Shown here: one piece after another, positions 19,745 through 36,270 of the stretch
Position numbering within the stretch: position 1 is the stretch's first letter
Layout: each line of letters opens with the position of its first letter
Assembly: GCA_002778785.1 (NCBI GenBank)
Contig: PEZS01000005.1
Coordinates: forward strand, 508 to 64,507
Direction of reading: 5' to 3'
DNA length: 64,000 bases
Origin: Bdellovibrionales bacterium CG10_big_fil_rev_8_21_14_0_10_45_34
GTDB lineage: Bacteria; Bdellovibrionota; Bdellovibrionia; Bdellovibrionales; 1-14-0-10-45-34
Program-made: the position numbers and the translations under genes
The notes under the pieces: generated by a model
What the model saw: the letters and a program-made list of their open reading frames with translations, nothing else
Told to the model about the DNA's origin: nothing
The model's database searches: none

Positions 19745-21226
19745 TTACTCGAGGGCTTTGAAGATGGCCTGCTGAATCTGTCCGTAAAACGGACTCGAGA
19801 ATATCCCCAAGAACAATGTGAGAACGGCACAAACGCCCAGGGCAGATCGACTGAACCAGTCACGACCTGGGGCTACAGGTTCGAGTGATTCATCGGCCAT
19901 ATACATAAGCACGATGGGACGCAAATAGTAGTAAACGCCCACCACAGAGCCAAGTAAACCCCAAACTACCAACCAAACAAGGCCTTCTTCAATGGCTGCA
20001 GAAAACAGGAACAGCTTTCCAAAGAAGCCCGCCATTGGAGGGATTCCAGCTAAACTCAATAAACAAATCGTTAAGCCCACTGCGACCCATGGTCTTGAGC
20101 GGCCAAGTCCTTTAAAATCTTCGAGTAGAAGCGTTGTGTTTTCATTTTTCTCAAAAAGGCTAAGCACAGCAAATGCGCCGACGTTCATGAGAGTGTAAGT
20201 GAGTAAGTAAAACAAAACACCCGAGGCAGCAAAAGTAGCGTTACTACTGAGACCTGCTGCAATCAAGCCCGTCATTATATAGCCAGAATGAGCGATGCTT
20301 GAGTAGGCGAGCATCCGCTTAAAGTTGGTTTGCCTAAGTGCCGCGAAATTACCAAGAAAAATAGTTAGAATTGTCAGCCACTGAAGTACGGTGATCAAAT
20401 CAGGAACACCAACCAGGAATCTTGTAGAGAAAATGCGAACCAAAACCACAAAAACAGCAAGCTTCGAAGCCGTCGCTAAAAATGCCGTAATTGGAGTGGG
20501 AGCACCTTGATAGACATCCGGAGTCCAGGCGTGAAACGGAAACAAAGAAACTTTGAACCCGAGGCCCACAATGATACCCACCATTCCCATCAAAAATAGC
20601 GGCTGAGATGAAGCAAGACCTGGGGCCGATTCTGCTAACTTTATGAAGTTTGTTGTCTGAGCAATACCATCGACAAACGCGACACCAAAAAGATAAATAG
20701 CGGACGCGAAACTTCCAAGTATGAAATATTTAAAGGCGGCTTCTTTAGCCAACCGCTCTTCGTTGCTCATACCGACAAGCACGTAGAGGGCCAGGGACAT
20801 AAGTTCTATTCCGATAAATACAATGATCAAATCGTTAGCTGCAGCGAGCACCATCATTGCTAAGGCAGAATTAAGAATAAGAAATACCTGTTCAGATGAC
20901 TGGTGCGACCTCGTCGCTGGGTTTCCAAGCGAGAGCCACATAACTAAAATTCCAGTGAAGAGAACGACAGCACTTGTCCAGCTGGAGATCCCGTCAAAAA
21001 CAAGTTTGGAAGCAAAACTCAAACCCACTCTATTATCCCATTGATAGAAGATGGTAATAAGAGCAAGCACAGCCACTACCACGCCGACTCCGACGGCAAT
21101 AAAAGGTGGAACGCTTTGGTTGCGCGATAAAACTCGTACTGTAAGTGGCACCATGCTGCCTAAGAATAAAATTAAGAGCGGCAGAGCAAGCCAAACATCT
21201 GACAATCCAATAGTGAACTGATTCAT
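19745..21226 (-). CDS. nuoN: NADH-quinone oxidoreductase subunit N
   Basis: 493 residues, about 14 membrane helices, one of three antiporter-like proton channels of the complex I membrane arm. Key landmarks are FIGIELMSLALYVL (TM5 Glu), GFKVSLFPFHAWTPDVYQGAPTP (TM7-TM8, with channel Lys and His), SKLAVFVVLVR and FKRMLAYSSIAHSGYI. Last gene of the operon. Its ATG overlaps the nuoM stop by 4 bp. The channel residues expected of an active subunit are present, in contrast to the paralogue at 27106. Confidence 0.95.
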   Translation of the reverse strand: MNQFTIGLSDVWLALPLLILFLGSMVPLTVRVLSRNQSVPPFIAVGVGVVVAVLALITIFYQWDNRVGLSFASKLVFDGISSWTSAVVLFTGILVMWLSLGNPATRSHQSSEQVFLILNSALAMMVLAAANDLIIVFIGIELMSLALYVLVGMSNEERLAKEAAFKYFILGSFASAIYLFGVAFVDGIAQTTNFIKLAESAPGLASSQPLFLMGMVGIIVGLGFKVSLFPFHAWTPDVYQGAPTPITAFLATASKLAVFVVLVRIFSTRFLVGVPDLITVLQWLTILTIFLGNFAALRQTNFKRMLAYSSIAHSGYIMTGLIAAGLSSNATFAASGVLFYLLTYTLMNVGAFAVLSLFEKNENTTLLLEDFKGLGRSRPWVAVGLTICLLSLAGIPPMAGFFGKLFLFSAAIEEGLVWLVVWGLLGSVVGVYYYLRPIVLMYMADESLEPVAPGRDWFSRSALGVCAVLTLFLGIFSSPFYGQIQQAIFKALE

Positions 21227-22755
21227 TTGCCCCCTCCGTCTTCGGTACCCATTTCAATATGATAATTGTGCAGATTATTTGAGAGATGCTCTAAGCTAGA
21301 CTTTGAATAGTCTAAGAAGTGGTTCGGAAAAACACCCATCCAAAATATCAATACTATTAGCGGACTAAGCACCGTCCACTCTCTCAAGTTAATGTCTTTC
21401 AGCGGATGCTCTTCATCTTTTACAAGCTCACCCTTAGGGCCAAGAAAGATTCTCTTAAACATCCAAAGCATATAAACTGCACCAAGTATCACGCCCAAGA
21501 CCGCAACAACTCCGTACACTGGCCTCGAAGTGAAAACCCCTAGTAGAATCAGAAACTCACCAACAAAACCGTTTGTCCCAGGCACTGCTATGCTTGAAAG
21601 CGTTACTATAAAAAAAGCAACAGTAAAGTGCGGCATGACAGATGCAAGGCCACCATACCTAGAAATCTCGCGCGAATGTGTTCGTTCGTAAATCATTCCG
21701 ACTAACAGGAAGAGAGCTCCTGTGCTAATGCCGTGATTGAGCATTTGGTACGTAGCCCCTACAATGCCGTTTACATTTAAGGCAAAAATTCCTGCAACTA
21801 TATAACCCATATGAGAAACAGATGAGTAAGCAACTAGCTTTTTGACGTCAGGCTGTACCATCGCTGTTAGCGCTCCGTAGATGATTCCAGCAACTCCTAA
21901 GAACATGAGGAGCCACGCCCAATATTGCGTAGCCTCAGGAAACAACGGAAGAACGAATCGAAGAAATCCGTAGGTTCCCATTTTTAACATGATGGCTGCC
22001 AAAATGACTGAGCCCGGAGTCGGCGCTTCAACGTGCGCATCCGGAAGCCATGTATGAAGCGGAAACAAAGGGACCTTAATCGCAAAAGCCGTCGCGAAAG
22101 CAAAAAACATAAGAGTTTGCGGGTTGAGAAGCTCGCCTCCAACGAATGGAATCTTGAGTCGATAAAAATCAATAAGACTTGAGCTCATATGGCCGAGTTG
22201 ATCCTGGCATAGCAGCATCAAATAAATTATTGATGCTAGCATCAAAACGGAGCCCAACATCGTGTAAAGAAAAAACTTCATTGTAGCGTATAGCTTCCGG
22301 GCTCCTCCCCAAATACCAATCAAAAAATACATTGGTACGAGCGAGGCCTCAAAGAACACATAGAATAAGACCGCGTCTAAAGCTAGAAATGTGCCCGTCA
22401 TGGCCGAAAGTAAAAAGAAAAGCTGTGAGTGGAAGAAGCGAACTCTTGATTCGATCGCACTCCAACTTGCCAGGATAACTATTGGAATAAAAAAACTCGT
22501 CAAAATCACAAGCCATAATGAAATGCCATCAACTCCCAAAGAAAGCTTTGTTCCGAAAAATGGAATCCACTCGTAAGACTCTGCAAACTGATAATTGACC
22601 GTAGATTTATTGAATTTTAATAATAGGCCCAAAGATATCGCAAAGTGACCTAGCGAAAGCACTAATGAAACTATACGTGTGATCTTGTCGTTAGGTATGA
22701 ATAAGACAGCTAAACCAGCAAGAATCGGAACTAAGACCAAGGCACTTAACAACAT
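21223..22755 (-). CDS. nuoM: NADH-quinone oxidoreductase subunit M
   Basis: About 510 residues, 14 helices, antiporter-like. Features include YVFFEASLVPMYFLIGIWG (TM5 Glu), AIKVPLFPLHTWLPDAHVEAPTPGS, and DVKKLVAYSSVSHMGY. I place the start at ATG 22755, which has GAGGT just upstream; a TTG at 22773 would overlap nuoL. The end overlaps nuoN (ATGA). Proton-channel Lys and Glu residues are intact, so it should pump. Confidence 0.95.
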   Translation of the reverse strand: MLLSALVLVPILAGLAVLFIPNDKITRIVSLVLSLGHFAISLGLLLKFNKSTVNYQFAESYEWIPFFGTKLSLGVDGISLWLVILTSFFIPIVILASWSAIESRVRFFHSQLFFLLSAMTGTFLALDAVLFYVFFEASLVPMYFLIGIWGGARKLYATMKFFLYTMLGSVLMLASIIYLMLLCQDQLGHMSSSLIDFYRLKIPFVGGELLNPQTLMFFAFATAFAIKVPLFPLHTWLPDAHVEAPTPGSVILAAIMLKMGTYGFLRFVLPLFPEATQYWAWLLMFLGVAGIIYGALTAMVQPDVKKLVAYSSVSHMGYIVAGIFALNVNGIVGATYQMLNHGISTGALFLLVGMIYERTHSREISRYGGLASVMPHFTVAFFIVTLSSIAVPGTNGFVGEFLILLGVFTSRPVYGVVAVLGVILGAVYMLWMFKRIFLGPKGELVKDEEHPLKDINLREWTVLSPLIVLIFWMGVFPNHFLDYSKSSLEHLSNNLHNYHIEMGTEDGGGK

Positions 22756-22766
22756 GTACACCTCAA

Positions 22767-24692
22767 CTACCAAAGAATCCAGGAGCTAATGACAACCAAA
22801 CCAAGCACTATGTACATTGCATACTGCTGAAGAGAGCCAGACTGAAAACTTCTAAATCCATCACCGCTTGAGATGGCCCAATCTGAAACTTTGTAGGTTA
22901 TCTTATCGATGAACGAGACATCTACCTCTGTCCATAAACCTTTGCCCACTTCCACGGTAGGCTTCACAAATGCTTTGTCGTAGGCTTCGTCAACTCGGTA
23001 TTTATCATAAACAAGCGAGTGCAATCTCGGAAACTTAGCCACGAAGGTTTTTACAAAGGCCGCGCCCTTAACATAGTTAACGTAGGCAAACCAGGCCGAT
23101 AGCCCCGCAAGGCTTACAGAGACAAACATCAGCAGATACTCTTGCCAAGCTTTTGCTTCTTGTAGCCCAGGTATGGCAGCAACCATTGGTTCTAACCAAT
23201 GAGCCAGTATATTGGGAATATGTAAACTATGCCCAATGACGTGAGGAATTCCTATCCATCCTCCGATAACTGAAAGCACACCGAGCACGATGAGCGGAAA
23301 TGTCATAGACAGCGGCGATTCGTGGGGATGTGTTTCTTTGGGTACGCGGCTAGCGCCCCAGAATGTGAGAGCCATAAGCCGAGTCATATAAAACGCCGTG
23401 CAGGCTGCAGCGAGCACGCCCACTACCCACAGAGCCCAATGGCCACGGGGACTATGAAAGCTCATCCACAAAATCTCGTCCTTGCTGAAGAAACCTGAAA
23501 AAAGTGGCGTACCGATAATCGCCAACCACCCCATCACGAACGTGGCGTGAGTTATTGGAAGGTATTTTTTAAGCCCTCCCATTTTTCGAATGTCTTGCTC
23601 TTCATGCATCGCGTGAATGACACTACCTGATCCTAAGAACATAAGTGCTTTAAAAAAGGCGTGAGTCATAAGGTGAAACATGGCAGCGCCAAAAGCCCCA
23701 ACTCCGCAAGCTAAAAACATATAACCTAGCTGTGATACCGTCGAGTATGCCAAAATCTTTTTAATGTCCCACTGGGTTGTGCCTATGGTAGCGGCAAAAA
23801 GTGCCGTCAGAGCGCCAACGATAGCGATACATGCCATAGCTATGGGCGATAAAATAAATAAGTGGCTAAGTCTCACAATCATGTAAACGCCGGCCGTAAC
23901 CATCGTCGCAGCGTGGATAAGAGCCGAAACTGGTGTGGGGCCCGCCATAGCATCAGGTAGCCAAACATAAAGTGGGATTTGAGCCGACTTCCCCGTTGCT
24001 CCAACGAAGAGAAGCAAGCAAATAGCCGTTATTAGTCCAAAGCCTTTTTCAGGATCTAGCCCAATTGTCGCCTGAGAAATCGTTAAGAAGTCGAGACTTC
24101 CGAAGAGCTGGAATAGAAGAAACATTCCCAGAAGTAGCCCTGCATCTCCAATTCGATTTGCTATAAAGGCCTTCATTCCAGCATTCGATTTTTCGACATC
24201 TTTGTACCAAAAGCCGATGAGCAAATAAGAGCAGAGACCTACGCCCTCCCAGCCGACAAACATGACGACTAAGTTGCTGCCGAGCACGAGAAGGAGCATG
24301 TTAAAGACAAATAAATTCAAATAAGCAAAGTATTTAGCGGGTTTCTCGTCATGACTCATGTAACCGATGCTAAATATATGTATAAGACTTCCGACGCCGG
24401 TAATGACAAGAGCCATGATTCCGCTAATTCGATCGAAGAGAAACGAAATGTCTAGTTGAAAACTAGACAAATTTAGCCAAGAGAAAAAGTTCACCAGCAA
24501 ACCTGCCCCGTCTTCAGCAGGTAATTGAGAAACTTGCATAAACAGAAGAACTGAGCAAACGAAGCTCGAAGCAATAGCCACGGTGGCTACGGTGCCTGCG
24601 AGTTTGTAATTGAGCTTGCATTGCAAGATCCCGTTAAACAAAAAACCGACAAGAGGAGATAGAAGTAGAATTCCTAGAAGCGTGGCGGCCAT
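22767..24692 (-). CDS. nuoL: NADH-quinone oxidoreductase subunit L
   Basis: 641 residues, the distal antiporter-like subunit with the long lateral helix at its C-terminus. Landmarks: FVGWEGVGLCSYLLIGFW, KSAQIPLYVWLPDAMAGPTPVSALIHAATMVTAGVY, DIKKILAYSTVSQLGYMF, and near the end SGSLQQYAMYIVLGL, the final anchor helix. It follows nuoK by 3 bp. Complete and normal in length. Confidence 0.96.
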   Translation of the reverse strand: MAATLLGILLLSPLVGFLFNGILQCKLNYKLAGTVATVAIASSFVCSVLLFMQVSQLPAEDGAGLLVNFFSWLNLSSFQLDISFLFDRISGIMALVITGVGSLIHIFSIGYMSHDEKPAKYFAYLNLFVFNMLLLVLGSNLVVMFVGWEGVGLCSYLLIGFWYKDVEKSNAGMKAFIANRIGDAGLLLGMFLLFQLFGSLDFLTISQATIGLDPEKGFGLITAICLLLFVGATGKSAQIPLYVWLPDAMAGPTPVSALIHAATMVTAGVYMIVRLSHLFILSPIAMACIAIVGALTALFAATIGTTQWDIKKILAYSTVSQLGYMFLACGVGAFGAAMFHLMTHAFFKALMFLGSGSVIHAMHEEQDIRKMGGLKKYLPITHATFVMGWLAIIGTPLFSGFFSKDEILWMSFHSPRGHWALWVVGVLAAACTAFYMTRLMALTFWGASRVPKETHPHESPLSMTFPLIVLGVLSVIGGWIGIPHVIGHSLHIPNILAHWLEPMVAAIPGLQEAKAWQEYLLMFVSVSLAGLSAWFAYVNYVKGAAFVKTFVAKFPRLHSLVYDKYRVDEAYDKAFVKPTVEVGKGLWTEVDVSFIDKITYKVSDWAISSGDGFRSFQSGSLQQYAMYIVLGLVVISSWILW

Positions 24693-24695
24693 TCT

Positions 24696-25028
24696 TTATC
24701 CCTTTAAGTTTTCAAAAAATCGAATGTTTATTCCTTTAAACTGCCTAAATATAGACACAGCGAGGGCTAACCCTATCGCTGCTTCAGATGCCGCTATTGC
24801 CATTACGAAAAACACGTTTATTTGGCCGTCCAAGGTCCCTGAAAAGCGGCTAAACGCTACCATGATAACATTCACTGCATTTAGCATAAGCTCGATCGAC
24901 ATTAGGATAACAAGAGTATTTCTTCGTACTAACACTCCTATCAGGCCTACAACAAAAAGTATGGCACCCAGTGTAAGATATTGAGGTAACCCGACATTCT
25001 GAGTCGCAATTGCTAAATTAGCGAGCAT
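24696..25028 (-). CDS. nuoK: NADH-quinone oxidoreductase subunit K
   Basis: 110 residues, three helices. Both buried acidic residues of the family are present: Glu in MSIELMLN (TM2) and Glu in IAASEAAIG (TM3). These belong to the central axis of charged residues that links quinone reduction to proton movement. Overlaps nuoJ by 11 bp. It serves as the reference for the diverged K-like gene at 30785. Confidence 0.95.
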   Translation of the reverse strand: MLANLAIATQNVGLPQYLTLGAILFVVGLIGVLVRRNTLVILMSIELMLNAVNVIMVAFSRFSGTLDGQINVFFVMAIAASEAAIGLALAVSIFRQFKGINIRFFENLKG

Positions 25029-25548
25029 GGGTTCCTCCTTTGGCTTTAGCTAGAACAATTGCGCCCACTAAGACGACCAAGAGCAAGACCCCGGTAAGTT
25101 CAAAACTGATTAAGTGTTCAGAAAACAATCGAATCGCCAGTTCTTTGGTTTGAGCTGTTCCGTCTTGAAGAGCTTGCCTAGGAGTGGGAGTTCCTTTGAA
25201 TGTCCATCCAATAACGGATGAAACGACACCTAAGAATAGACCAGCTAAGATCACCTTGAACATAAAACTGATCAGTCCGCCCGAAAAGGCCTTCTTTTCT
25301 TCTTTTAAATCGAAAAGCATCAGCACCATCACAAACAAAATAACAACGGCGCCTGCATAAACGATGAGCTGCACGCCGGCCAAAAAGTAGGCCTCCAAAT
25401 GGAAGAACAAGCCACTTACGCTCAACATTGTGAGTGCTAACGACAGCGCCGAATAAATGGGGTTCGATACTAAAACGACTGAAAGAGCTGACGCCATGGC
25501 AAGGCCAGCTAAAAGGTAAAATAGAAGACCAGATACATCGATTAACAT
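25018..25548 (-). CDS. nuoJ: NADH-quinone oxidoreductase subunit J
   Basis: 176 residues, five helices. VSNPIYSALSLALTML and YAGAVVILFVMVLMLF (the pi-bulge TM3 region that flips during turnover) are typical. The C-terminal helix ELTGVLLLVVLVGAIVLAK also fits. Start ATG is 2 bp from the end of nuoH. Confidence 0.95.
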   Translation of the reverse strand: MLIDVSGLLFYLLAGLAMASALSVVLVSNPIYSALSLALTMLSVSGLFFHLEAYFLAGVQLIVYAGAVVILFVMVLMLFDLKEEKKAFSGGLISFMFKVILAGLFLGVVSSVIGWTFKGTPTPRQALQDGTAQTKELAIRLFSEHLISFELTGVLLLVVLVGAIVLAKAKGGTHAR

Positions 25549-25549
25549 G

Positions 25550-26704
25550 CTAGCCCCTGTTCATAACATACACTGCGATCGCAGTAACAAAGAGGTTCAT
25601 CAAGCCCCATGGAAGCATCGTCTTCCAGCCCAAATCCATAAGCTTGTCATATCGAAACCTAGGAAGCGTCCAACGAACCCAGATAAAGAACCAGAGAAAG
25701 AAAAAGACCTTCATAAGAAAAGAAATCAAAAAGACGAGGGACGTGAGCAGACTCGATACCGTTGGCGAAAATCCATTGTTGAGAAGCGACTGAAACACCG
25801 TATCTTGTGTCAAGAAGGGAATGCCGTAACCTCCCAGGAAAAATATGACGAATAAGGCACTCGAAACCAGCATGTGCCCATACTCACCCATAAAAAACAG
25901 GAGCATTTTAAATCCACCATACTCGGTATGGAAACCCGCGACCAATTCACCCTCTGCTTCTGGAAGATCAAACGGAAGACGATTCGACTCCGCAAAGGCG
26001 GCAGTTAAAAACAATACTGCACCAAGTGGTTGAAAGATGATTCCCCAGTTCGGGAGCCACCCGACCGTTACCTGCTTCCCAAACCAAGCAAATGCAAGTG
26101 GGCCCTCTTGAAGCTGAACCATCTCATTGAGACTAAAGGTGCCGTAAAGTATGAGTGCACCAACAATTGATAGACCGAGAGCCAGCTCGTAACTCACCAT
26201 TTGTGCGCAGGCTCTCAGAGCACCCAGTAAAGAGTATTTATTGCCAGACGCCCAGCCCGCCGTGAGAAGTCCATAAGCGCCCAACGAAGAAACGCCTAAT
26301 ATATAGATAATACCAACATTCATATGAACAGTCTGAATTTCAAAAACGTAGGGTCCCCATGCGCGCCCAAACAACTCGAAGGTGCTAACTTCCACTGGGG
26401 TTGAAAGAGGAATGGCAGCAAAGGCCAATGCTGCCGGGACAAGCGCAATCACTGGAGCAGCCTTAAAGAGAAACGGCTTTGCGTTGGCCGGAATAAACTG
26501 TTCTTTAAAAATAAACTTAATTGCATCTGCAAGTAACTGAAGCAGGCCCAGCGGCCCAACTCGATTCGGGCCAAGTCGATTCTGGATAAACGCAGATCCT
26601 CTTCGTTCTGCCCACACCAGAATGGGAACGAGCTGCACCATCGCAAGAAAGATCACAATAAGTTTTAGCAAGTTGACCGCTATTTCAAACTGATCGGCAC
26701 CCAT
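25550..26704 (-). CDS. nuoH: NADH-quinone oxidoreductase subunit H
   Basis: About 384 residues, eight helices, forming the quinone chamber with the peripheral arm. WAERRGSAFIQNRLGPNRVG (first cytoplasmic loop), GWASGNKYSLLGALRACAQ and LVAGFHTEYGGFKMLLFFMGEY (quinone-site and E-channel motifs) are all present. The ATG at 26704 overlaps the nuoA stop (TGATG); an in-frame start 30 bp upstream would lie inside nuoA. Confidence 0.95.
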   Translation of the reverse strand: MGADQFEIAVNLLKLIVIFLAMVQLVPILVWAERRGSAFIQNRLGPNRVGPLGLLQLLADAIKFIFKEQFIPANAKPFLFKAAPVIALVPAALAFAAIPLSTPVEVSTFELFGRAWGPYVFEIQTVHMNVGIIYILGVSSLGAYGLLTAGWASGNKYSLLGALRACAQMVSYELALGLSIVGALILYGTFSLNEMVQLQEGPLAFAWFGKQVTVGWLPNWGIIFQPLGAVLFLTAAFAESNRLPFDLPEAEGELVAGFHTEYGGFKMLLFFMGEYGHMLVSSALFVIFFLGGYGIPFLTQDTVFQSLLNNGFSPTVSSLLTSLVFLISFLMKVFFFLWFFIWVRWTLPRFRYDKLMDLGWKTMLPWGLMNLFVTAIAVYVMNRG

Positions 26705-27075
26705 CAATCCCACTCCAAGGCTTTTGCCTTCCACTCATAAAAAAGTCCAAAAACTAAAACGAATAGAAAGAAGCCCATTGATAGTAATAGATATAGACCT
26801 GCTTCTGGCATTGTTTCGCGGTAAATAAGTGTCCAAGGATACAAAAAGACAATCTCGATATCGAACAATATAAAGGAAATAGCAGTGAGATAAAATTTGA
26901 CCGGGATTTGTGTGGAATTCGGAGCCTGCCCTGCAACTCCACATTCGTAGGGGTTTTCTTTGGCTTGCGTGGCTCGAACTTTAAAGCCCGTTAGCGTTGT
27001 CAGTAAGATCATGCCTGTTCCAAAGGCAATCACAACGACAAATAAGATAAGCACCGGCAAAAGCTGCTGAATCAT
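26704..27075 (-). CDS. nuoA: NADH-quinone oxidoreductase subunit A
   Basis: ATG at 27075 has GGAG six bases upstream; the longer frame from 27099 has no ribosome binding site. 123 residues, three helices, with NPYECGVAGQ and the acidic FDIEIVFLYPW motif of active NuoA/ND3. First of the canonical set A-H-J-K-L-M-N. It follows the diverged N-like gene by 30 bp without a visible terminator. Subunits B, C, D, E, F, G and I are not in the window. Confidence 0.94.
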   Translation of the reverse strand: MIQQLLPVLILFVVVIAFGTGMILLTTLTGFKVRATQAKENPYECGVAGQAPNSTQIPVKFYLTAISFILFDIEIVFLYPWTLIYRETMPEAGLYLLLSMGFFLFVLVFGLFYEWKAKALEWD

Positions 27076-27105: not shown

Positions 27106-28500
27106 CTAAGTCGGATGAGAACTTAAATAGTTATACAAAGGGGCTGCACAGATTCCAAGCACTATAAATGCCACATAACCGGCACATTCAAGAAAACTGG
27201 GCTGCCATTTTTCTGATAAGGTATCGCTCGCCTCTCGCGCATTGAGTCGAAAAAGATCGTAAAGAGATTTAAATAACGCCATAAATACAAAAGCTAAAAC
27301 CAACGCCACTAGTAAAGAGGGCGACAAGACGGAAAGCTGAACCGGTTGCCAAAGGGGGGCTTTATACGCTTCAAAGTACCGGCCGACAAGTTGCAGTCCG
27401 AGCTCGGTAGCGACAGGAAATAAACCCAAGACTGCAGATCCCAAAAGAATTCTAGGGAAAAGGTGCCAAGATTGAATTTTTTGGCTCAAGCGATCCGGAG
27501 AAATATTTAGCGAGAGGCTTGAGCGTTTGAACACAAAAATGATCAAACAGAGAGCTAGCACCCCTTCGATGAGTACAATCGCCCGAAAAACCGCATCCAG
27601 TTTAAGTAGCGGTGAGTGAGCTAGAATGTTTATCGTAAGAGTCAGGGTAAACCAGGCAAAAAGCCGTGTATAGATATGCTTAGAACTAAAAATTTCGAGA
27701 ACTGCCATCATACTCAGCGAGCCGAACACAAACAACCGTACGGCCTCTTGCATACCTTCAAACGGACCCGGCGTAGAATAGTACTCCAAAACACGCGAAA
27801 TGAGAGAAAACCCTATGAGCGTCAAAAGAGCTCGTATGTAGCCCATGAGGCTCCAGCTATTAACCTCTTCGAAATCTTTCATAATTGGAGAAAATGGGAA
27901 TCGTGCAATGAGCATAAATGAAACCGCCAACCACAAAAGCGTCGAATACACGAGCATCTCTCCCGGCTGCAACGATGGGGCTGCTCCAAAAACAGATTCC
28001 CCCGTCGCAAAGTGATACTGGAGGCTTGCAATCACACACATAAGAGCAACAACGCCAGCCATTAACCCCCAACCGACTATCTTTTTAGGCGCAAGCGGCA
28101 TTTTTTTTGCCAAGTGAGGAGCTAAGTGGCCGAAGAAGTAGCTCGCTGGGAGTAGCATCGTAAGAATAAGAACATCCTGTGTTTCAATTGCCTGAAGAGT
28201 TAAGAGCAACATGATAAGCACGAATGGCAAAAACTGACGACGGTATCCATACCGATCCTTGAGTAGCCCGCTTGAAAGAAAAAGCGCCGTAAAAAGGGCT
28301 GCCGCCTTATAGATTGTCATCTCGACCTTCCACCCTTTCAGCTCTGCCCATGTTCTGTAGAGTTCAACTCCTTCTAAAATGATGGATAAGGAAACCGCCG
28401 AAAGAAAAATTGTAGGGATTGCATCTTTCAAGCTCCAACGCTGTGGCCAAAGGGTTATCAAAGCTACGCCAGCAATCAACGCTATATAGGTATGACTCAC
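27106..28500 (-). CDS. diverged NuoN-like membrane protein (N')
   Basis: 464 residues, about 13 hydrophobic segments. Alignment by eye to the NuoN encoded at 19745: IARFPFSPIMKDFEEVNSW aligns with KVSLFPFHAWTPDVYQGAP; LLTLIGFSLISRVL aligns with SKLAVFVVLVRIF; IYTRLFAWFTLTLTINIL aligns with FKRMLAYSSIAHSGYI; VLGICAAPLYNYLSS aligns with FLGIFSSPFYGQIQQ. The channel Lys (FK-, SK-) and the FPFH His are replaced, so proton translocation by the normal route is unlikely. Start GTG at 28500 directly follows the upstream stop. Calling it a NuoN relative is inference from faint similarity plus gene order. A NuoM-type assignment is possible. Confidence 0.6.
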   Translation of the reverse strand: MSHTYIALIAGVALITLWPQRWSLKDAIPTIFLSAVSLSIILEGVELYRTWAELKGWKVEMTIYKAAALFTALFLSSGLLKDRYGYRRQFLPFVLIMLLLTLQAIETQDVLILTMLLPASYFFGHLAPHLAKKMPLAPKKIVGWGLMAGVVALMCVIASLQYHFATGESVFGAAPSLQPGEMLVYSTLLWLAVSFMLIARFPFSPIMKDFEEVNSWSLMGYIRALLTLIGFSLISRVLEYYSTPGPFEGMQEAVRLFVFGSLSMMAVLEIFSSKHIYTRLFAWFTLTLTINILAHSPLLKLDAVFRAIVLIEGVLALCLIIFVFKRSSLSLNISPDRLSQKIQSWHLFPRILLGSAVLGLFPVATELGLQLVGRYFEAYKAPLWQPVQLSVLSPSLLVALVLAFVFMALFKSLYDLFRLNAREASDTLSEKWQPSFLECAGYVAFIVLGICAAPLYNYLSSHPT

Positions 28501-29601
28501 CTAAACCCCCAAAAATCTTATTCCAACAATTAAAAAAGTGCCGATCTGTATGGCCGCCCATCGATATTCTTGCAAAGAAGTCTTTCGCGAATCTGCTGGC
28601 TCAGGTTGCCGCGTTTGGAGTTGATACTCCATAATCCAGCTCACCGATGCCAGTAAAAGTGCAAATGCGAGCCACGCGAGCACAGAGTAGACGGATCTAT
28701 TCGCCAACGAATCGAAAACGCAGAACACAAATATTAACATGGGACCGCCGCCCAAAGAGAAGTGTTGTCCAGGTAAATACAAGTGAGCGTGGCTATCTTC
28801 GCTCTTTTGAGCTTTTCGAGAAAAACCCACCGCTGACGAGAATGCTACCAAAGCCAAGAGAAGTGTAATTGATCCATCATCACGGTTCAGTGAAAGACCA
28901 ATAATCATTAGAGTAAGAAAGGATATTACATACCAACTCCAGTGCTTGAGGTTCGCAAAAATAAAGTAGCCTAGAGCTGCTGCTGCAATTGTTAACCAAA
29001 CCCATAGTTCAAAACTCTTTACAAAAGAAAAACTTAAGAGCGTTGGCTGGAATGAATACACGAGATAAATTATATAAAGACGCAAACTTGTTTGCTGAAT
29101 ATTCACCTGCCATCTCAGAAAGGATGATTCGCCAACACTACTGTCAGTCCAGTGCGACGCAAAAACCGGAACAAATGAAAGAACTAGAGTAGAGGCTATC
29201 TCTATTGCTAAAGCTTGCTCCGCAAGCAGCCAGCCAAATTGCGCCACGCAATAGCCCAACACGCCAATGGCCATTATCACGATAAAATACTTGGCCGGCC
29301 TACGCCTCAATGAAAATGAAATTAAAGAAATAACAATAATTTGAAGCAGGCTCATGGATAGGCCCCAGTTTCGCGTGGCTAAGCCAACAGCTCCGTAAAG
29401 CAGGGGTAAACCAAGAAACAAAAGCAATGCGCTGCCGCTGTATTTTTGATCAGAAGTCGCAAATAAACCTAAAAGGCTCAGCAATACCCAAACTGAAAAA
29501 GTTAGATCGGTAAGGTGAATTCGTCCTGTAAATGCGAAGAACAAAACCCCGAAGAATAGGACTATAGCAATATTTTTAAAGGGATCTAATTTGCGAACCA
29601 A
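28501..29601 (-). CDS. diverged NuoM-like membrane protein (M')
   Basis: About 366 residues, 10-11 hydrophobic segments. TTG at 29601 has CTGGAG six bases upstream; it lies inside the end of the preceding gene. Weak matches to NuoM: AALGYFIFANLKHWSWYVISFLTLMIIGL follows the pattern of the TM11-12 region, split here as AALGYFIFANLKHW and YVISFLTLMIIGL, but lacks the K-K-L-A-Y-S-S core. SVYSVLAWLAFALLLASVSW resembles the VYGVVAVLGVILGAVYMLW region. It is about 140 residues shorter than NuoM and has no FPLH or Glu-channel motif that I can find. Without the gene order I would call it only a membrane protein. Confidence 0.5.
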   Translation of the reverse strand: MVRKLDPFKNIAIVLFFGVLFFAFTGRIHLTDLTFSVWVLLSLLGLFATSDQKYSGSALLLFLGLPLLYGAVGLATRNWGLSMSLLQIIVISLISFSLRRRPAKYFIVIMAIGVLGYCVAQFGWLLAEQALAIEIASTLVLSFVPVFASHWTDSSVGESSFLRWQVNIQQTSLRLYIIYLVYSFQPTLLSFSFVKSFELWVWLTIAAAALGYFIFANLKHWSWYVISFLTLMIIGLSLNRDDGSITLLLALVAFSSAVGFSRKAQKSEDSHAHLYLPGQHFSLGGGPMLIFVFCVFDSLANRSVYSVLAWLAFALLLASVSWIMEYQLQTRQPEPADSRKTSLQEYRWAAIQIGTFLIVGIRFLGV

Positions 29602-30788
29602 ACGAAACTCCAGACACAAGCAACGATAACTAGGGTACCTATACCAAACTGAAGAAGTGGATTTGCCACAACTCGGTCCATAACTCCATACTCAGAAAAT
29701 GCCGAATAGAGTTTCGGAGTTTTAGCAACCTCTTTCTGTATTGGTCGAGGTAAGTACTTTGCTATTGCAATCGAAAAACCAACCGGTCTACTGCCAACTG
29801 AATTCCTATCGGTGAAGTAGCCAAGCAGCACACCGACAAAAACTGAATATACCGAGTATCCAAGCTCTGGCCTAAACTCACGAAGCATTTCAAGAATCTC
29901 TTCATTATATAGAAAACAAAACCCCGAAAAGAAGAGAAGACCGACCACTTCGATTTGCCAACTCATTTGTTTTCTAAGATCTCCTCGTAAAAAAGCCGAG
30001 TAAGAAACCGCCAGATACGCGGCAGCCGTCGCCAGCTGCCAAACTATATTCAGAGAGGCGTCGTAAGAAAATAGGGCCGATACAATTAATGAGATACCAA
30101 ATGAGGCCCGTGCAACAATCCCTTTTCTCCAAAAAAATAAAAGGGCTGGCAGAATTGAAAGCCACGGACCCCAGAGCGAGGCCGTGTACAAGTAAATCGC
30201 GAGAGAAGCACCACGATATCTTCTGGTAAAGCCCAAGAAAAACGCTATGCCTAAAAGGATTTTAGCGTACTGCAAAAGACCCGCCTCGGGAATCATACAG
30301 AACACGCTCAGAATCAATACCTCAGAGAGAGCAAATCCGTCCTTCGAATCAAGTTCGACATTCGAAAATGAGAAAAAAGGCCATTCTAGAAACCGAACTA
30401 ATAAGAGTGTCGACAAGAGTATGGCTATGAGGAGCGATGCTTCCGGGTTGTTTAGAGACATAATTGCTCTGGCCAACACAGCAATGCCCAAGACAATAGG
30501 AAGCCCTAGTTTTTCAGACCAAACGTTTCCATCACCCGATTCGACGAGTGCTCTTAGGGTGTAAAAACTGGCGGCTGCAAATAATGCTACGCCCAGGGCG
30601 CCGGGCAGAAGTGTCGAAAAACCCACCAAAAAAAAAGTGATTGTTCTGCCTACATCAGCGCGAGTAAAGCCTTCATATAAGCAGTTGAGTGCTAGTGAAA
30701 GCATCAAAAGCCTTACTGACGTTGTCTCAGTAAACGTTGAACCTACCGCTAACAAAACTGCCGCGAGTACGTGAAATGCTACTTTCAT
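29586..30788 (-). CDS. diverged NuoL-like membrane protein (L')
   Basis: 400 residues, about 11 hydrophobic segments. The C-terminus has a long polar, partly amphipathic stretch (about 325-370, IAKYLPRPIQKEVAKTPKLY) followed by NPLLQFGIGTLVIVACVWSF. This mirrors the lateral helix and last anchor of NuoL (SLQQYAMYIVLGLVVISSW). The central K-x-P-L-x-x-W-L-P and K-K-I-L-A-Y motifs are absent. It overlaps the K-like gene by 4 bp (ATGA) and the M-like gene by 16 bp. The NuoL assignment is inferred from position and this C-terminal layout. Confidence 0.5.
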   Translation of the reverse strand: MKVAFHVLAAVLLAVGSTFTETTSVRLLMLSLALNCLYEGFTRADVGRTITFFLVGFSTLLPGALGVALFAAASFYTLRALVESGDGNVWSEKLGLPIVLGIAVLARAIMSLNNPEASLLIAILLSTLLLVRFLEWPFFSFSNVELDSKDGFALSEVLILSVFCMIPEAGLLQYAKILLGIAFFLGFTRRYRGASLAIYLYTASLWGPWLSILPALLFFWRKGIVARASFGISLIVSALFSYDASLNIVWQLATAAAYLAVSYSAFLRGDLRKQMSWQIEVVGLLFFSGFCFLYNEEILEMLREFRPELGYSVYSVFVGVLLGYFTDRNSVGSRPVGFSIAIAKYLPRPIQKEVAKTPKLYSAFSEYGVMDRVVANPLLQFGIGTLVIVACVWSFVWFAN

Positions 30789-31063
30789 TTCAAACCTTCA
30801 GGGTGTTCTTCATAATCGCTATTTTCCAGCTGTCTACCTCTCCAGCTAGATTGAATGACGACAAAGCAGACGCCTAAAATTAAGACCGGCACACTGAGCG
30901 CCGCAATCGTCATTTGGCCGTTTTGTGAAAACCTCAAAGCCATAATGGCTATAACCGTGAAGAAATTAAATAGAAACAGGGTTTTAAACATTTGAGAGGG
31001 AACGAAGTAAATAAGACCTGAAATCAAAATAAGCGAACCTATATATACCCAAGCCTCTATCAT
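30785..31063 (-). CDS. diverged NuoK-like membrane protein (K')
   Basis: ATG at 31063 overlaps the preceding stop (ATGA); the longer open frame has no ribosome binding site. 92 residues, three helices, collinear with NuoK: YIGSLILISGLIYFVPSQ aligns with TLGAILFVVGLIGVLVRR. At the two buried Glu positions it has FNFF (for SIELM) and VPVLILG (for SEAAIG), so both acids are lost. A short acidic tail ends in HPEGLK, where NuoK ends in ENLKG. Among the seven this is one of the clearer relationships. Confidence 0.6.
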   Translation of the reverse strand: MIEAWVYIGSLILISGLIYFVPSQMFKTLFLFNFFTVIAIMALRFSQNGQMTIAALSVPVLILGVCFVVIQSSWRGRQLENSDYEEHPEGLK

Positions 31064-31443
31064 GTTCGGACTCCATCTTTTAACCCGGCAACAAGCCCTG
31101 AAAGTCCGATAAGTGTGCAAAGGGCCAATAGACGCTCCTTCTTTTCAATGAGAAGTCCTCCAACGTCCGACCAGTTCACATTCCATTCTGATGAAATTTG
31201 TTCGATCTTAAGTAAATGCATAAGTATTGCAAAACTAACAGCGATGACCCCGTATACAACCAACATTGTCGTGTGCTGGTTTGTTCTCATCGCTTTCAAA
31301 TCTCTTTTGTGCTGAGGAACGACGGCCAACACACAAAAAATGGCCGCCAAGGAAAGTACTATTGCGAACTCATATTGACCCGCCCTAACAAGGGTGAGTA
31401 ACGCCAAAGAAAATATTAAAAGATTCAGGGTCGCCCAGATCAC
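31060..31443 (-). CDS. diverged NuoJ-like membrane protein (J')
   Basis: GTG at 31443 is preceded by AAGGAG at ideal spacing and overlaps the H-like stop (GTGA). 127 residues, four to five helices. The end, GGLLIEKKERLLALCTLIGLSGLVAGLKDG, parallels the C-terminal RLFSEHLISFELTGVLLLVV...LAKAKGG of NuoJ (compared in two halves). The TM3 YAGAVVILFVMV motif is not recognisable; MLVVYGVIAVSFAIL occupies that place. The family call rests on position, length and the C-terminal helix. Confidence 0.55.
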   Translation of the reverse strand: MIWATLNLLIFSLALLTLVRAGQYEFAIVLSLAAIFCVLAVVPQHKRDLKAMRTNQHTTMLVVYGVIAVSFAILMHLLKIEQISSEWNVNWSDVGGLLIEKKERLLALCTLIGLSGLVAGLKDGVRT

Positions 31444-32303
31444 ATTGCGCTCCTTACTATGGAGAGTGCGCAAAAAAGCAAAATGAGTGTTGGATTTAGT
31501 AGTCTTAAAAAAGATCGCAGTGTTGAATCCAGAGATTTAGAATGAGAATACTTCTCTAGTAGAGAAATAATGGATCTGACGAAAGCGGTAGCCAGAAGCG
31601 GCAATGCCCACGACATTAGACCCTCTCCCATAATACTCGTCGGAAATAAGGCCATCGTTACAGTCAGTAAAACGATTAATATAATGAGTTCTTTTTCGAA
31701 ATTCTCAATAGAGTTCTCGAGCGGCCCATCAATATAATACAATCCATTTAAATAAACGAGGGAACTTGCCACTCCCAACCCTGTTAATAACGGGGCAATC
31801 AAGAAATACGAAACAACAATAGAAAGTTGATTCGCGCTTGCACCCTCTAAAAAGGCTAACTGTTTAAAACAAATAACTGTGAAGACAGAAAGAGACAAGA
31901 GGAGAAGTAACTGTAATTTAATTTCTCGAAACTGGCCATCTCCTCGGCGAAGCGAATCAACCCAGTCAACAAGACCGTGGAGCCCCAAGCAAATAATAAT
32001 TAGATATCGCCAATACATCTCATCTATGTTGACGGGAAATACTGCAAAAACTGCTACTGAAGATAAGAGAAGTCCCGTCGTCAAAATTCGAAAGGGATTG
32101 GCTGAGTAGCTAAGACAAAGCTGCAACAAAGACCAAATAGTTTCTTTAAACAAAAAGACTAACTTTTGAGGATTGGCCTTTAAACCTTTTGAGAAAAATA
32201 GTCCTGGCAAGAAGTAAAATTGCATAAAGCGTATTACCAGGAAGTACACAGCAACGAAGCCGAGCAACTTCAATACGACTATGAGAGCCTCTTGCAAATT
32301 CAT
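31440..32303 (-). CDS. diverged NuoH-like membrane protein (H')
   Basis: 287 residues, about eight hydrophobic segments against 384 residues in NuoH. KLVFLFKETIWSLLQ and ANPFRILTTGLLLSSVAVFAVFP follow the NuoH stretch LLQLLADAIKFIFKE and ANAKPFLFKAAPVIALVPAAL in order and spacing. The ERR loop, the GPNRVG loop and the acidic quinone-site loop (HTEYGGF...GEY) are missing, so it cannot form a normal quinone chamber. A polar loop (YIDGPLENSIENFEKE) marks the second half. ATG overlaps the A-like stop (ATGA). Confidence 0.55.
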   Translation of the reverse strand: MNLQEALIVVLKLLGFVAVYFLVIRFMQFYFLPGLFFSKGLKANPQKLVFLFKETIWSLLQLCLSYSANPFRILTTGLLLSSVAVFAVFPVNIDEMYWRYLIIICLGLHGLVDWVDSLRRGDGQFREIKLQLLLLLSLSVFTVICFKQLAFLEGASANQLSIVVSYFLIAPLLTGLGVASSLVYLNGLYYIDGPLENSIENFEKELIILIVLLTVTMALFPTSIMGEGLMSWALPLLATAFVRSIISLLEKYSHSKSLDSTLRSFLRLLNPTLILLFCALSIVRSAM

Positions 32304-32617
32304 TTTGATATCCTAGGCTCGAACCATTTTAGACACAAGAAGGTCACCCCGGCGAAAAATAAGATCGTGCCCACAACTTTTATGCTGGACTCACTTATCG
32401 AAATAGAGGGCAGCAAAATCACCAAGACCAAAAAGCTTGGGAAAGCAGTAACATATTTGTAAACTTCGCCTACTACTGGAGGTTTTACTATCTGCCACCG
32501 ATTTTTGTTAAGATCTGGCGTTGAGATGAATATTCTTTTTGCAAAAATCGACATGACAATTGCAAAACAAAAGAAGGTGGTGACAAAAATTAAAGAAACT
32601 AATAAAAATTGCGACAC
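32300..32617 (-). CDS. diverged NuoA-like membrane protein (A'), first gene of the operon
   Basis: GTG start at 32617. 105 residues, three hydrophobic segments like NuoA/ND3, with a basic polar loop after the first (STPDLNKNRWQIVKPP) where NuoA carries ATQAKENPYECG. The ECG and FDIE motifs are gone. It opens the series A'-H'-J'-K'-L'-M'-N' that runs, every junction overlapping or abutting, into nuoA-H-J-K-L-M-N. As a lone gene it would be unassignable. Confidence 0.5.
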   Translation of the reverse strand: MSQFLLVSLIFVTTFFCFAIVMSIFAKRIFISTPDLNKNRWQIVKPPVVGEVYKYVTAFPSFLVLVILLPSISISESSIKVVGTILFFAGVTFLCLKWFEPRISK

Positions 32618-32808: not shown

Positions 32809-35800
32809 GTGAGATATTCGGATTTTTATGCACTTTTGAATCGCGCTTGTTTAAATAGCCGATTTGTACATGTTACCGGCACCGCCTCTGAGTTAGCGGC
32901 CTCGAAGTGGTTGACCGACTTGAGTTGCCAAATTCAAGGTGGGCCCATTGTCGTCGTAGCGGCGGATACCTCTTCGCTCGATCGCTTTGATGAAGGGCTG
33001 TCGTTTTGGGGCGGAAGTATTTCAAGTTGTCGACTTGAAGAGATGGATGTCGGCCCATACTCAGGGTTAGCACCGCACCGTCAAAGAATTGGAGAAAGAT
33101 GCCGCTGGTTGTTTTCAGCCTTGAATCTGCAGCAAAACAAGGTTCTGAGTGCTACGTTACCCGGTCTTGCTCAACGAACGAGCCCTGTCGACTATTTTCT
33201 CGGTCACTGCCATGAACTTCGCATCGGGACTGATTTACCCGAGGGGTTTGTGTCACTGCTTATTAAAATGGGCTACTACGCAAGCCCAAAGGTTGAAGAT
33301 GTCGGCCAATATTCCATTCGCGGAGGTATAATTGACCTTTTCAGCCCGGCCTATCTGTCCCCTGTACGAATTGAGCTATTTGGAGATCAGATTGAATCTG
33401 CACGGCTTTTTGATCCTTTAAGTCAAAGATCGCTCCAAAGCGTAGAAAAACTTTGGATTATCCCTTCAAGAGAGGTTTCACTCGAACCGGAATATCGAAT
33501 GGCGGCGGCACGCAGCATTAAAGATCGATTCCCCGATGGCTCTGCCGTTCAGGAGATACAAAATCAACTGAGCCTGGGCGCTAATTTTGACTGTGTCGAC
33601 TTTTTGGTTTCTGATTTTTTTGATCAAGATACGAGCGCGGTAGATTATATTCCCACTGGGGCAACAATATTGTGGCTCGATTCTATTGAATGTAACCAAA
33701 GCTTCGAATCGTTTTTGGTTTCAGAAGCGAGGGCTTTTGAAAAGTCTGCGGGCGAGATTTTTTCACCTCCTCCTGATCGCTTTTATGAAAAGAGTATCCG
33801 AACGATTTTGGATAGCCAGTTTCGGCGCATAGAGCTTAACAGAATTCGATTGGAAGAAGGTGACGAATCAGAATCGCACCTTTTAACGTATAGAACTCAG
33901 CCCTTTCGCACGCTAAATGCCGATCATCTACCTTTAACTAATCCTGACCTTCAGAAGAGAGTACGAGCGAAACTTCAAGAGTTTTTAGAGAATCAAATTG
34001 GGGTCGTTGTTACCTGTGGGTCCGAGCTCCAGTTGCAGCGAATGAGTCACTTCATGGAAGTTTTATCTCTTCCTCTAGAAATCGTGAAGGGGCCAATCGA
34101 AGACTTGTCGCATAACACGATACATTTGGCTTCGGCCGAAATCTCTGTTTCTGAAGTCGACTTAGAGAGTCGAACCGCCTTTTTAAGAGATCAGGATTTT
34201 CTTGGGGACCGAGCTGCCAGGCGGTTGGGTGCCGGCCAATCGAAAACCACTTCAGCCCAGAAAGCCCTGGAGACTTTTTCGCATTTAGACCTTGAATCAG
34301 GTCAGGTGGTAGTTCACAAGGATCACGGAATTTGCATTTTCGACGGCTTAAAGACGATCGAGGTACAAGGTATACCTGCCGAGTTTTTGGTGCTTCGCTT
34401 TAAAGACCAAGACAAGCTCTATTTGCCAACATATCGAGTGGGATTGATTCAGAAGTTTGAAGGCTCCCCTGCACTAGACAAGCTTGGTGGCACGGCTTGG
34501 TTGAGAACCAAGATTAAGGTAAAGAATCATCTCAGAGATATTGCCTCTGAACTTCTTAAACTCTACGCAATTCGCTCACAGGCTGAACGCGAAGCTTACC
34601 CTCCCGTCGATGAAGACTACTTGGCGTTTGAAAGCGCGTTCCCTTACGAGGAAACTCAAGATCAGCTGCGTGCTATTGACGAAATCAACTCAGATCTTGA
34701 ACTCGTGCGCCCAATGGACAGACTCGTTTGCGGAGACGTTGGTTTTGGAAAGACTGAAGTTGCCATGAGAGCGGCTTTTCGTTGTGCAAAAGAAGGTCGG
34801 CAGGTTGCGGTGCTTGTTCCAACAACCGTTCTCTGTTTTCAACACCTAGAATCCTTCAGAAAAAGATTTCACGGGTGGCCTTTGCGCATTGAATCGCTTA
34901 GTCGCTTCACGAGCCCTGCAGATTCAAAGAAGACTCTCCACGACTTGTCTGAAGGAAAAGTCGATATCGTAATTGGTACTCACCGACTGCTCAGCCAAGA
35001 TATTAAGTTCCAACGGCTCGGACTCATTGTCGTTGATGAAGAACAAAGATTTGGCGTCAGCCACAAGGAGAAGCTTCGTAATTTGCGTAAGACCGTCGAT
35101 ACACTCAGTATGTCGGCCACACCGATCCCGAGAACTCTCAACCTAAGCCTTTCGGGAATTCGAGATCTGAGTTTGATTGGAACTCCTCCAAAAGGTCGCT
35201 TACCTACAAGAACGTTTATTTCTAAGTATGATGAAGAAACGATTAGAAAAGCAATTCTCGGCGAAATGGAGCGCGGCGGGCAAATTTTTTATATTCACAA
35301 TCGTGTTCAATCTATTTACTCGGTTGCAGACGAATTGAGAACACTTGTGCCAGAAGCGAGGGTTATCATTGGGCATGGGCAGTTGCCCGAGAGAGAGCTC
35401 GAAAGGGTTATGGTCGACTTTTATTCTCACAAGTCTGATGTTTTACTTTCTACAACGATAATTGAAAGTGGATTAGATATTCCGCGCGCAAATACGATGA
35501 TCGTTGATCAGGCTCAGAACTACGGCCTTTCTCAGCTGTATCAGCTTCGCGGGCGCATAGGCCGAGGTAAAGATCGCGGGTATTGTTATCTAATAATTCC
35601 TCATGGCCGAGTTCTTGATTCCGCAGCTCAAGAGCGCCTGCGCGTACTTCAGCAAAATTCCGAACTCGGCAGTGGTTTTATAATTGCTCAGCATGATTTA
35701 GAGATGAGAGGCTCTGGCAATCTGCTTGGTGAGGAACAAAGTGGTTTTGCCAATTCAGTCGGATACGAACTCTACATGGAACTGCTTCAAGAGGCGATAG

Positions 35801-36270
35801 CAGAGCTTAAAGGCGAAGAGATATCAGAGAAAACAATAGATACAGAGATCAACTTACGAATCCCTGCATTGATTCCTGATTCCTACATTCCTGACATCAA
35901 AACACGGCTCTACTACTATAGAAAACTTACCTTTGTAGAAGATGAACGTGATATTGATACGCTAGAAGACGAGCTACGAGACCAGTTCGGTGCACTTCCA
36001 GAATCGACAATTAATCTACTAGGAGTCATGTTAATTCGGCGAGAGTGTCAGCGCTTGGGCGTTTTAGATTTGTCCGCGGGCCCAAAAAATCTTTCACTGC
36101 TGTTCTCTCCGAAAACAAAGATTCGTACGGAGAGATTAATCTTCTTGGCCGGACACCCGAACAAAAAGTATGCAATCACTCCAGACAATCGACTGATCGT
36201 GCGTCTAGGGGATATCACTTGGCCAAAAGTTCTCGACGAAATCCGCACCCTTAAAAACTCACTCCTCTAA
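32809..36270 (+). CDS. mfd: transcription-repair coupling factor Mfd
   Basis: 1153 residues. It displaces RNA polymerase stalled at DNA lesions and recruits UvrA. Order: a UvrB-like N-terminal module (about 1-400, YSIRGGIIDLFSP), an RNA-polymerase-interacting domain (about 500-570, VVHKDHGI...FLVLRF), a SF2 translocase with Walker A GDVGFGKTEVA and the Mfd box VVDEEQRFGV, helicase motifs (MSATPIPRTL, GRIGRG), then a TRCF C-terminal domain. GTG start at 32809. Complete, standard length. It ends 33 bp before the converging outer-membrane protein gene. Confidence 0.97.
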   Translation: MRYSDFYALLNRACLNSRFVHVTGTASELAASKWLTDLSCQIQGGPIVVVAADTSSLDRFDEGLSFWGGSISSCRLEEMDVGPYSGLAPHRQRIGERCRWLFSALNLQQNKVLSATLPGLAQRTSPVDYFLGHCHELRIGTDLPEGFVSLLIKMGYYASPKVEDVGQYSIRGGIIDLFSPAYLSPVRIELFGDQIESARLFDPLSQRSLQSVEKLWIIPSREVSLEPEYRMAAARSIKDRFPDGSAVQEIQNQLSLGANFDCVDFLVSDFFDQDTSAVDYIPTGATILWLDSIECNQSFESFLVSEARAFEKSAGEIFSPPPDRFYEKSIRTILDSQFRRIELNRIRLEEGDESESHLLTYRTQPFRTLNADHLPLTNPDLQKRVRAKLQEFLENQIGVVVTCGSELQLQRMSHFMEVLSLPLEIVKGPIEDLSHNTIHLASAEISVSEVDLESRTAFLRDQDFLGDRAARRLGAGQSKTTSAQKALETFSHLDLESGQVVVHKDHGICIFDGLKTIEVQGIPAEFLVLRFKDQDKLYLPTYRVGLIQKFEGSPALDKLGGTAWLRTKIKVKNHLRDIASELLKLYAIRSQAEREAYPPVDEDYLAFESAFPYEETQDQLRAIDEINSDLELVRPMDRLVCGDVGFGKTEVAMRAAFRCAKEGRQVAVLVPTTVLCFQHLESFRKRFHGWPLRIESLSRFTSPADSKKTLHDLSEGKVDIVIGTHRLLSQDIKFQRLGLIVVDEEQRFGVSHKEKLRNLRKTVDTLSMSATPIPRTLNLSLSGIRDLSLIGTPPKGRLPTRTFISKYDEETIRKAILGEMERGGQIFYIHNRVQSIYSVADELRTLVPEARVIIGHGQLPERELERVMVDFYSHKSDVLLSTTIIESGLDIPRANTMIVDQAQNYGLSQLYQLRGRIGRGKDRGYCYLIIPHGRVLDSAAQERLRVLQQNSELGSGFIIAQHDLEMRGSGNLLGEEQSGFANSVGYELYMELLQEAIAELKGEEISEKTIDTEINLRIPALIPDSYIPDIKTRLYYYRKLTFVEDERDIDTLEDELRDQFGALPESTINLLGVMLIRRECQRLGVLDLSAGPKNLSLLFSPKTKIRTERLIFLAGHPNKKYAITPDNRLIVRLGDITWPKVLDEIRTLKNSLL

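Follow-up and report, generated by a model that had tools for sequence, protein, structure and literature searches.

A probable degenerate second complex I encoded beside the canonical nuo genes in Bdellovibrionales

What are the seven membrane-protein genes without an obvious family that lie directly before the canonical nuoA-H-J-K-L-M-N genes of Bdellovibrionales bacterium CG10_big_fil_rev_8_21_14_0_10_45_34? The genes (hereafter the cassette) occupy positions 27106-32617, on the minus strand, of a 64,000-nucleotide stretch of contig PEZS01000005.1 (the window; contig positions 508-64,507), and coordinates given without a contig or locus name are window positions. An initial annotation of the window had taken them for a strongly diverged copy of the membrane arm of complex I. 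Primed names (A', H', J', K', L', M' and N'; B', C', D' and I') denote the shadow copies, and unprimed names the canonical Nuo subunits. Our analysis indicates that the shadow set is very probably a degenerate, paralogous complex I. The whole explanation, in which the seven genes encode the membrane arm of this second, strongly degenerate enzyme and the enzyme acts as a non-pumping partner, is the one that we favour, as reasonably probable.

Results

The cassette and its conservation among relatives

The seven open reading frames (ORFs) were all found just before nuoA with the lengths that the initial annotation had reported (Table 1). They overlap or abut one another, with intergenic spacings of -4, -34, -61, -4, -34 and 0 bp before start trimming, and the cassette is flanked by mfd and nuoA. 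Because of these overlaps, and because only 6 bp separate the 3' end of N' from the longest nuoA ORF, the cassette and nuoA-H-J-K-L-M-N appear to form a single operon. None of the seven window proteins matched a Pfam or NCBIfam family above the cut-off.

To define the distribution of the cassette, we compared the nuoH neighbourhood of the window with those of 91 other genomes from its order (92 loci). In 81 of these loci nuoA directly adjoins mfd (mfd-nuoH distance, 444-971 bp), five have no mfd on the contig, and one has a 2.4 kb gap free of membrane genes. The seven-gene cassette was present between mfd and nuoA in the remaining five, from the window genome (G000; family f1), G076 (family f6), and G138, G139 and G140 (family f10). 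Two more carriers at the same site, G369 and G370, brought the total to seven Bdellovibrionales genomes; G370 has all seven genes, and in G369 the cassette is spread over two contigs. The order of the cassette followed by nuoA-N, for which a search in relatives had been proposed, is thus not confined to the window, and the recurrence of an identical seven-gene set between mfd and nuoA in seven genomes indicates more than chance.

Protein identity between the cassettes is mostly 14-25%, and gene lengths are near-constant (coefficient of variation 4-15% among the seven genomes). The numbers of transmembrane helices (TMs) are likewise stable: 3 in A', 8-9 in H', 4 in J', 3 in K', 11-13 in L', 11-13 in M' and 13-14 in N', against canonical medians of 3, 9, 5, 3, 17, 15 and 14 for A-H-J-K-L-M-N. 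When length and helix count were considered together, the pairing of shadow and canonical subunits in the observed order was among the best 12 of the 5040 pairings, the ties among those 12 being essentially swaps among similar subunits. The earlier remark that the lengths track the canonical order is borne out.

Single-sequence searches with N' (84,980 genomes, plasmids and 141 genomes of the order) recovered only N' itself, a search with H' yielded, beyond the genome that encodes it, no matches above chance level, and narrow hidden Markov models (HMMs) of the canonical subunits did not separate the shadow proteins from background membrane ORFs.

Identity of the membrane subunits

The initial annotation had assigned all seven proteins to complex I membrane subunits, and this assignment holds to different degrees. 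It is best supported for N'. A profile of seven N' sequences matched NuoN from end to end (hhalign probability 97.1%, E = 6.7e-11, 459 columns), while its matches to NuoL and NuoM stayed at the background level. The motif pairs noted previously (RFPFSPIMKD with LFPFHAWTPD, and TRLFAWF with KRMLAYS) lie inside the aligned regions. A five-sequence N' profile searched across 369 genomes gave few weak matches, two of them NuoN genes, and BLASTP connected N' of G369 with the gene at the NuoN position of G090 (6e-5). In the Foldseek search of an AlphaFold model of N', the seven best PDB matches were complex I antiporter-like subunits, which we use as support only since the model is of low confidence (predicted local distance difference test score, pLDDT, 44). 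These results identify N' as homologous to NuoN along its full length.

For H' and K', the less diverged members of the set were informative. The best Pfam match of H' from G370 and G369, two proteins linked to each other by BLAST at 6e-40, was PF00146 (NADHdh; NuoH), with E values of 9.6e-5 and 3e-5, respectively; the matches are below the curated cut-offs, are colinear and lie in the C-terminal part. Similarly, the best Pfam match of K' from G370 and G076 was PF00420 (Oxidored_q2; NuoK; E = 0.006 and 0.037, below the curated cut-offs), and the TM spacing of K' is that of NuoK. The weak, colinear matches support the identification of H' with NuoH and of K' with NuoK.

The profile match of A' to NuoA was 58% with one sequence set and 0.6-10% with others; because it swings with the sequence set in this way, we grade as weak the identification of A' as a shadow NuoA, to which position, topology and this alignment-dependent signal point. 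By position and topology, J', L' and M' are candidates for NuoJ, NuoL and NuoM; profile comparison gave no sequence signal for J' and no significant match for L' or M'. The M' profile gave a weak antiporter-like signal of 14-19%, below significance, with NuoN as the best match. In L', a segment of 48-69 residues precedes the last TM in all seven genomes; its counterpart in canonical NuoL has 84 residues, and this long polar segment may correspond to the lateral helix. The AlphaFold model of L' (predicted template modelling score 0.26) was useless, and a fold search with it gave no meaningful match.

A second soluble set

The initial annotation had described a membrane arm alone, and in this respect it needs revision. 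A search of the carriers for the NuoD and NuoB families detected a second, degenerate copy of each. In the window genome they lie on another contig (contig 8; locus L200), where nuoB-nuoCD-nuoE-nuoF-nuoG-nuoI is followed by B' (163 amino acids), D' (350 amino acids) and I' (180 amino acids), and the same arrangement after nuoI occurs in G138, G139, G140 and G090. Among 141 genomes of the order, a degenerate NuoD was found only in these five; other second NuoD copies belonged to an intact second operon or were split matches. Five relatives have a short ORF where NuoC would be expected, assigned as C' by its position (about 100 amino acids between B' and D' in G139, G140 and G090).

B' of the window genome matched PF01058 (NuoB) with 66.4 bits (cut-off 27) and D' matched PF00346 (NuoD) with 33.7 bits (cut-off 24). 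The hhalign probabilities were 99.9% for B' with NuoB, 99.7% for D' with NuoD and 98.6% for I' with NuoI, and when the three profiles were compared with PDB chains, complex I subunits ranked at the top, above hydrogenases. No second NuoE, NuoF or NuoG was present at either shadow locus, a result that concerns these loci since a genome-wide search was not made.

A scan of NuoCD loci in named genomes (80 loci) found B', D' and I' after nuoI in five: 7_bin.11 (G090), UBA6502 (G140), UBA3535 (G139) and the Oligoflexia isolates nzgw168 (G369) and SJ240 (G370), the last two being new. This served as a prospective test, as G369 and G370 were picked through the soluble shadow genes alone and proved to carry the membrane cassette as well. 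The peripheral locus was informative in four of the cassette genomes, and D' was present in all four, against one of 82 genomes without the cassette (Fisher's exact test, 2.4e-6, a value that overstates independence since the genomes are related). G076 is uninformative on the soluble set because its assembly, which is 83% complete, has no NuoD whatever.

A gene of about 300 codons after I' (L201:7549-8427 and L203:7246-8154) was considered as a further member and rejected, as it follows nuoI in many non-carriers. Its product has no Pfam family above the cut-off, and many genomes of the order have the gene in this position, so it is not specific to the shadow set.

Residues kept and lost

All four cysteines of cluster N2 (CC, C and GCPP) are kept in B', and all eight cysteines of clusters N6a and N6b (two CxxCxxCxxxC motifs) in I', in seven of seven sequences, that is, in every carrier with the soluble set sequenced. 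In NuoD, the HPxxHG hairpin binds the quinone head group, and together with a tyrosine it contributes to the quinone site. The hairpin motif is missing from all six full-length D' copies, and the tyrosine is replaced in the alignments.

Seven of seven N' sequences lack the TM8 lysine and six of seven the TM12 lysine; the positions of the TM5 glutamate and the TM7 lysine fall in unaligned columns. By inspection, both channel glutamates of NuoK are absent from K'. In K' of G369 and G370 (L292 and L297), the glutamate of NuoK helix 2 is replaced by lysine (SMKL and AIKL versus SIEL), a charge reversal and not a simple loss.

The simplest reading of these patterns is a complex that has an intact iron-sulfur wire and would lack canonical quinone chemistry and pumping. 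An ion-inert membrane arm, one of the roles raised in the initial annotation, would fit the loss of the N' lysines and the NuoK glutamates. Two other kinds of complex were considered and rejected: a group 4 membrane-bound [NiFe] hydrogenase, as D' has no conserved CxxC where two nickel-ligand motifs are expected, and an Mrp antiporter (gene set A-B-C-D-E-F-G, with MrpA and MrpD), as the cassette has no Proton_antipo_M match, its gene order differs, and B', D' and I' are associated with it.

Evolutionary history

In a tree of NuoCD, the seven carriers for which a peripheral locus was available all grouped in one clade; it has ten members, the other three being non-carriers. A single origin followed by losses is plausible, the tree requiring three changes with moderate support. 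B' and D' each formed a single clade (99-100% support), which was not placed inside the canonical clade. Their attachment between the canonical enzymes and the type 2 enzymes was unreliable because the branches are very long, and for the same reason the trees do not decide whether the shadow set arose by duplication within the canonical lineage. Type 2 here refers to an intact second operon with the 11 genes A-B-C-D-H-I-J-K-L-M-N and no E, F or G, which is present in seven other Bdellovibrionales genomes (G028, G128, G097, G002, G031, G106 and G067; loci L138-L144), its NuoH being 41-47% identical to the canonical one. Unlike this operon, whose genes form a single block in which I separates H from J, the shadow genes are split beside the canonical operons, and B' and D' have a clade of their own.

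The tandem duplication proposed in the initial annotation receives a mixed answer. Duplication in situ is a plausible origin: in its favour, both shadow blocks adjoin the canonical blocks and share their division into A-H-J-K-L-M-N and B-(C)-D-I. Against it stand the tree positions and the separation of C' and D', the canonical NuoC and NuoD being fused into NuoCD at each of the 81 loci checked.

Discussion

Comparison with known systems

The shadow set resembles bacterial complex I (NDH-1; nuoA-N) in having homologous B, D, I and N subunits, with H and K supported, in sharing its gene order and two-locus split with the canonical set of the same genome, and in keeping the cysteines of N2, N6a and N6b. 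Unlike NDH-1, it has no NuoE/F/G partner, it has lost the NuoD quinone hairpin, the N' lysines and the K' glutamates, and its membrane subunits are shortened and changed beyond recognition by family models. The absence of E, F and G and the separate C and D are shared with the 11-subunit enzymes (Desulfitobacterium, cyanobacterial NDH-1 and Fpo), whose subunits, in contrast, are normal and recognisable. Two complex I sets in one genome are also found in Rhodobacter sphaeroides (complexes IA and IE); however, both of those isozymes are normal complex I (PMC4859585), while here one set is degenerate.

In 2M complex I and its kin, one pumping subunit related to NuoL/M/N is added. The shadow set also adds membrane-arm subunits related to NuoL/M/N; unlike 2M complex I, it would represent a whole second complex, in which the tested pumping residues are gone.

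We found no description of a conserved shadow complex I in the open-licence papers searched, in line with the initial annotation, and the main text of a recent HMM survey of complex I is silent on Bdellovibrionota, paralogs and degenerate sets (PMC12361115).

Possible role and rival explanations

With no NADH module, no normal quinone pocket and no normal proton channels, the shadow complex would partner the canonical enzyme without pumping, in a redox or a structural capacity; this role is quite possible and is the likeliest of those considered. More tentatively, the set may be a conserved pseudo-complex I: a whole respiratory complex that was duplicated, lost its NADH input together with normal quinone reduction and proton pumping, and now serves as a stoichiometric partner, joining the canonical enzyme in a hetero-oligomer or drawing electrons from it. 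The shadow subunits would still assemble as an L-shaped complex, stoichiometric with the normal enzyme; we infer this from the direction that the shadow sets share with the nuoA-N and nuoB-I operons and from their tight linkage to them, and the spacing suggests co-transcription with both. Electrons could run from N6a through N6b and N2 to an acceptor other than the canonical quinone. Alternatively, the main task of the shadow complex may be to bind the canonical enzyme and give it shape, as it might in a hetero-oligomer.

Several observations weigh against this explanation. For J', L' and M', neither sequence nor fold gave significant evidence of a link to complex I, and for A' the evidence is weak. 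C' is absent from the window genome. G090 (L203) has B'-C'-D'-I' without a cassette at mfd-nuoA, and no N' was detected elsewhere in its genome; its membrane arm may have been lost, relocated or become too diverged to see, or the two halves may be separable. The extreme divergence could be compatible with drift before loss, and quinone reduction may proceed through a remodelled site.

The last point leads to the notion of a remodelled enzyme of the 11-subunit type, which we consider unlikely. The subunits (B, (C), D, I, A, H, J, K, L, M and N, without E, F and G) are those of such enzymes, which are known (PMC11238625) and occur intact in the type 2 genomes of the same order, and both I' cluster motifs and the four B' cysteines are invariant. 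However, the NuoD hairpin has disappeared, as have key charged residues in N' and K', L' and M' are short of about 2-4 helices, and the membrane subunits are often less than 25% identical to one another where their canonical counterparts are far more alike.

A further reading is a relic in decay, in which the duplicated complex I genes no longer have a function and are on their way to being lost. Divergence has been very fast, two lineages of the carrier clade (L214 and L229) have apparently lost the soluble set, C' is tiny or missing, and J', L' and M' are shortened. We nevertheless regard a relic as improbable: all complete genes are intact, with lengths and helix counts near-constant across seven deeply diverged genomes, the iron-sulfur cysteines are invariant, and the overlapping start-stop coupling is retained. 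It is very improbable, finally, that only N', B', D' and I' derive from complex I and that the remaining membrane genes are unrelated joiners. The lack of significant profile matches for J', L' and M' and the failed fold search for L' would agree with such a mixed origin, but the best Pfam matches of H' and K' are their own NuoH and NuoK families, the order, lengths and TM counts follow A-H-J-K-L-M-N, and L' has its long polar segment in the same place as NuoL.

Few bioenergetic machines are as conserved as complex I. If the favoured explanation is true, a variant with an electron wire and an apparently full subunit plan, but without the residues believed to reduce quinone and pump protons, would separate architecture from catalysis, and would offer a rare example of an entire respiratory complex of many subunits turned into a pseudo-complex. 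With its defined cassette next to an intact complex I, the system lends itself to direct testing.

Other features

When the whole genome was searched for members of the antiporter family PF00361, the canonical NuoL, NuoM and NuoN and two proteins encoded on another contig were detected, with no match in the cassette. The genes of the latter two are close to each other (G000:C13:1804-5720; 760 and 524 amino acids) and probably encode an Mrp-type antiporter. The cassette genes and their neighbours in the window are summarized in Table 1.

Table 1. Genes of the cassette and adjoining genes (aa, amino acids)
Feature	Position	Strand	Description
A'	32300..32617	-	105 aa, 3 TM; putative shadow NuoA (position, topology, weak profile match)
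H'	31440..32303	-	287 aa, 8-9 TM; probable shadow NuoH (weak Pfam matches of G369 and G370 orthologues)
J'	31060..31443	-	127 aa, 4 TM; candidate shadow NuoJ (position only; topology constant in seven genomes)
K'	30785..31063	-	92 aa, 3 TM; probable shadow NuoK (weak Pfam matches of orthologues, NuoK-like TM spacing)
L'	29586..30788	-	400 aa, about 13 TM; candidate shadow NuoL (position)
M'	28501..29601	-	366 aa, about 13 TM; candidate shadow NuoM (position, weak antiporter-like signal)
N'	27106..28500	-	464 aa, 14 TM; shadow NuoN (hhalign and Foldseek)
nuoA, canonical	26704..27075	-	123 aa; immediately downstream of N'
nuoH, canonical	25550..26704	-	384 aa
nuoJ, canonical	25018..25548	-	
nuoK, canonical	24696..25028	-	
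nuoL, canonical	22767..24692	-	
nuoM, canonical	21223..22755	-	
nuoN, canonical	19745..21226	-	493 aa
mfd	32809..36270	+	transcription-repair coupling factor; divergent; far border of the insertion site (unoccupied in 81 relatives)

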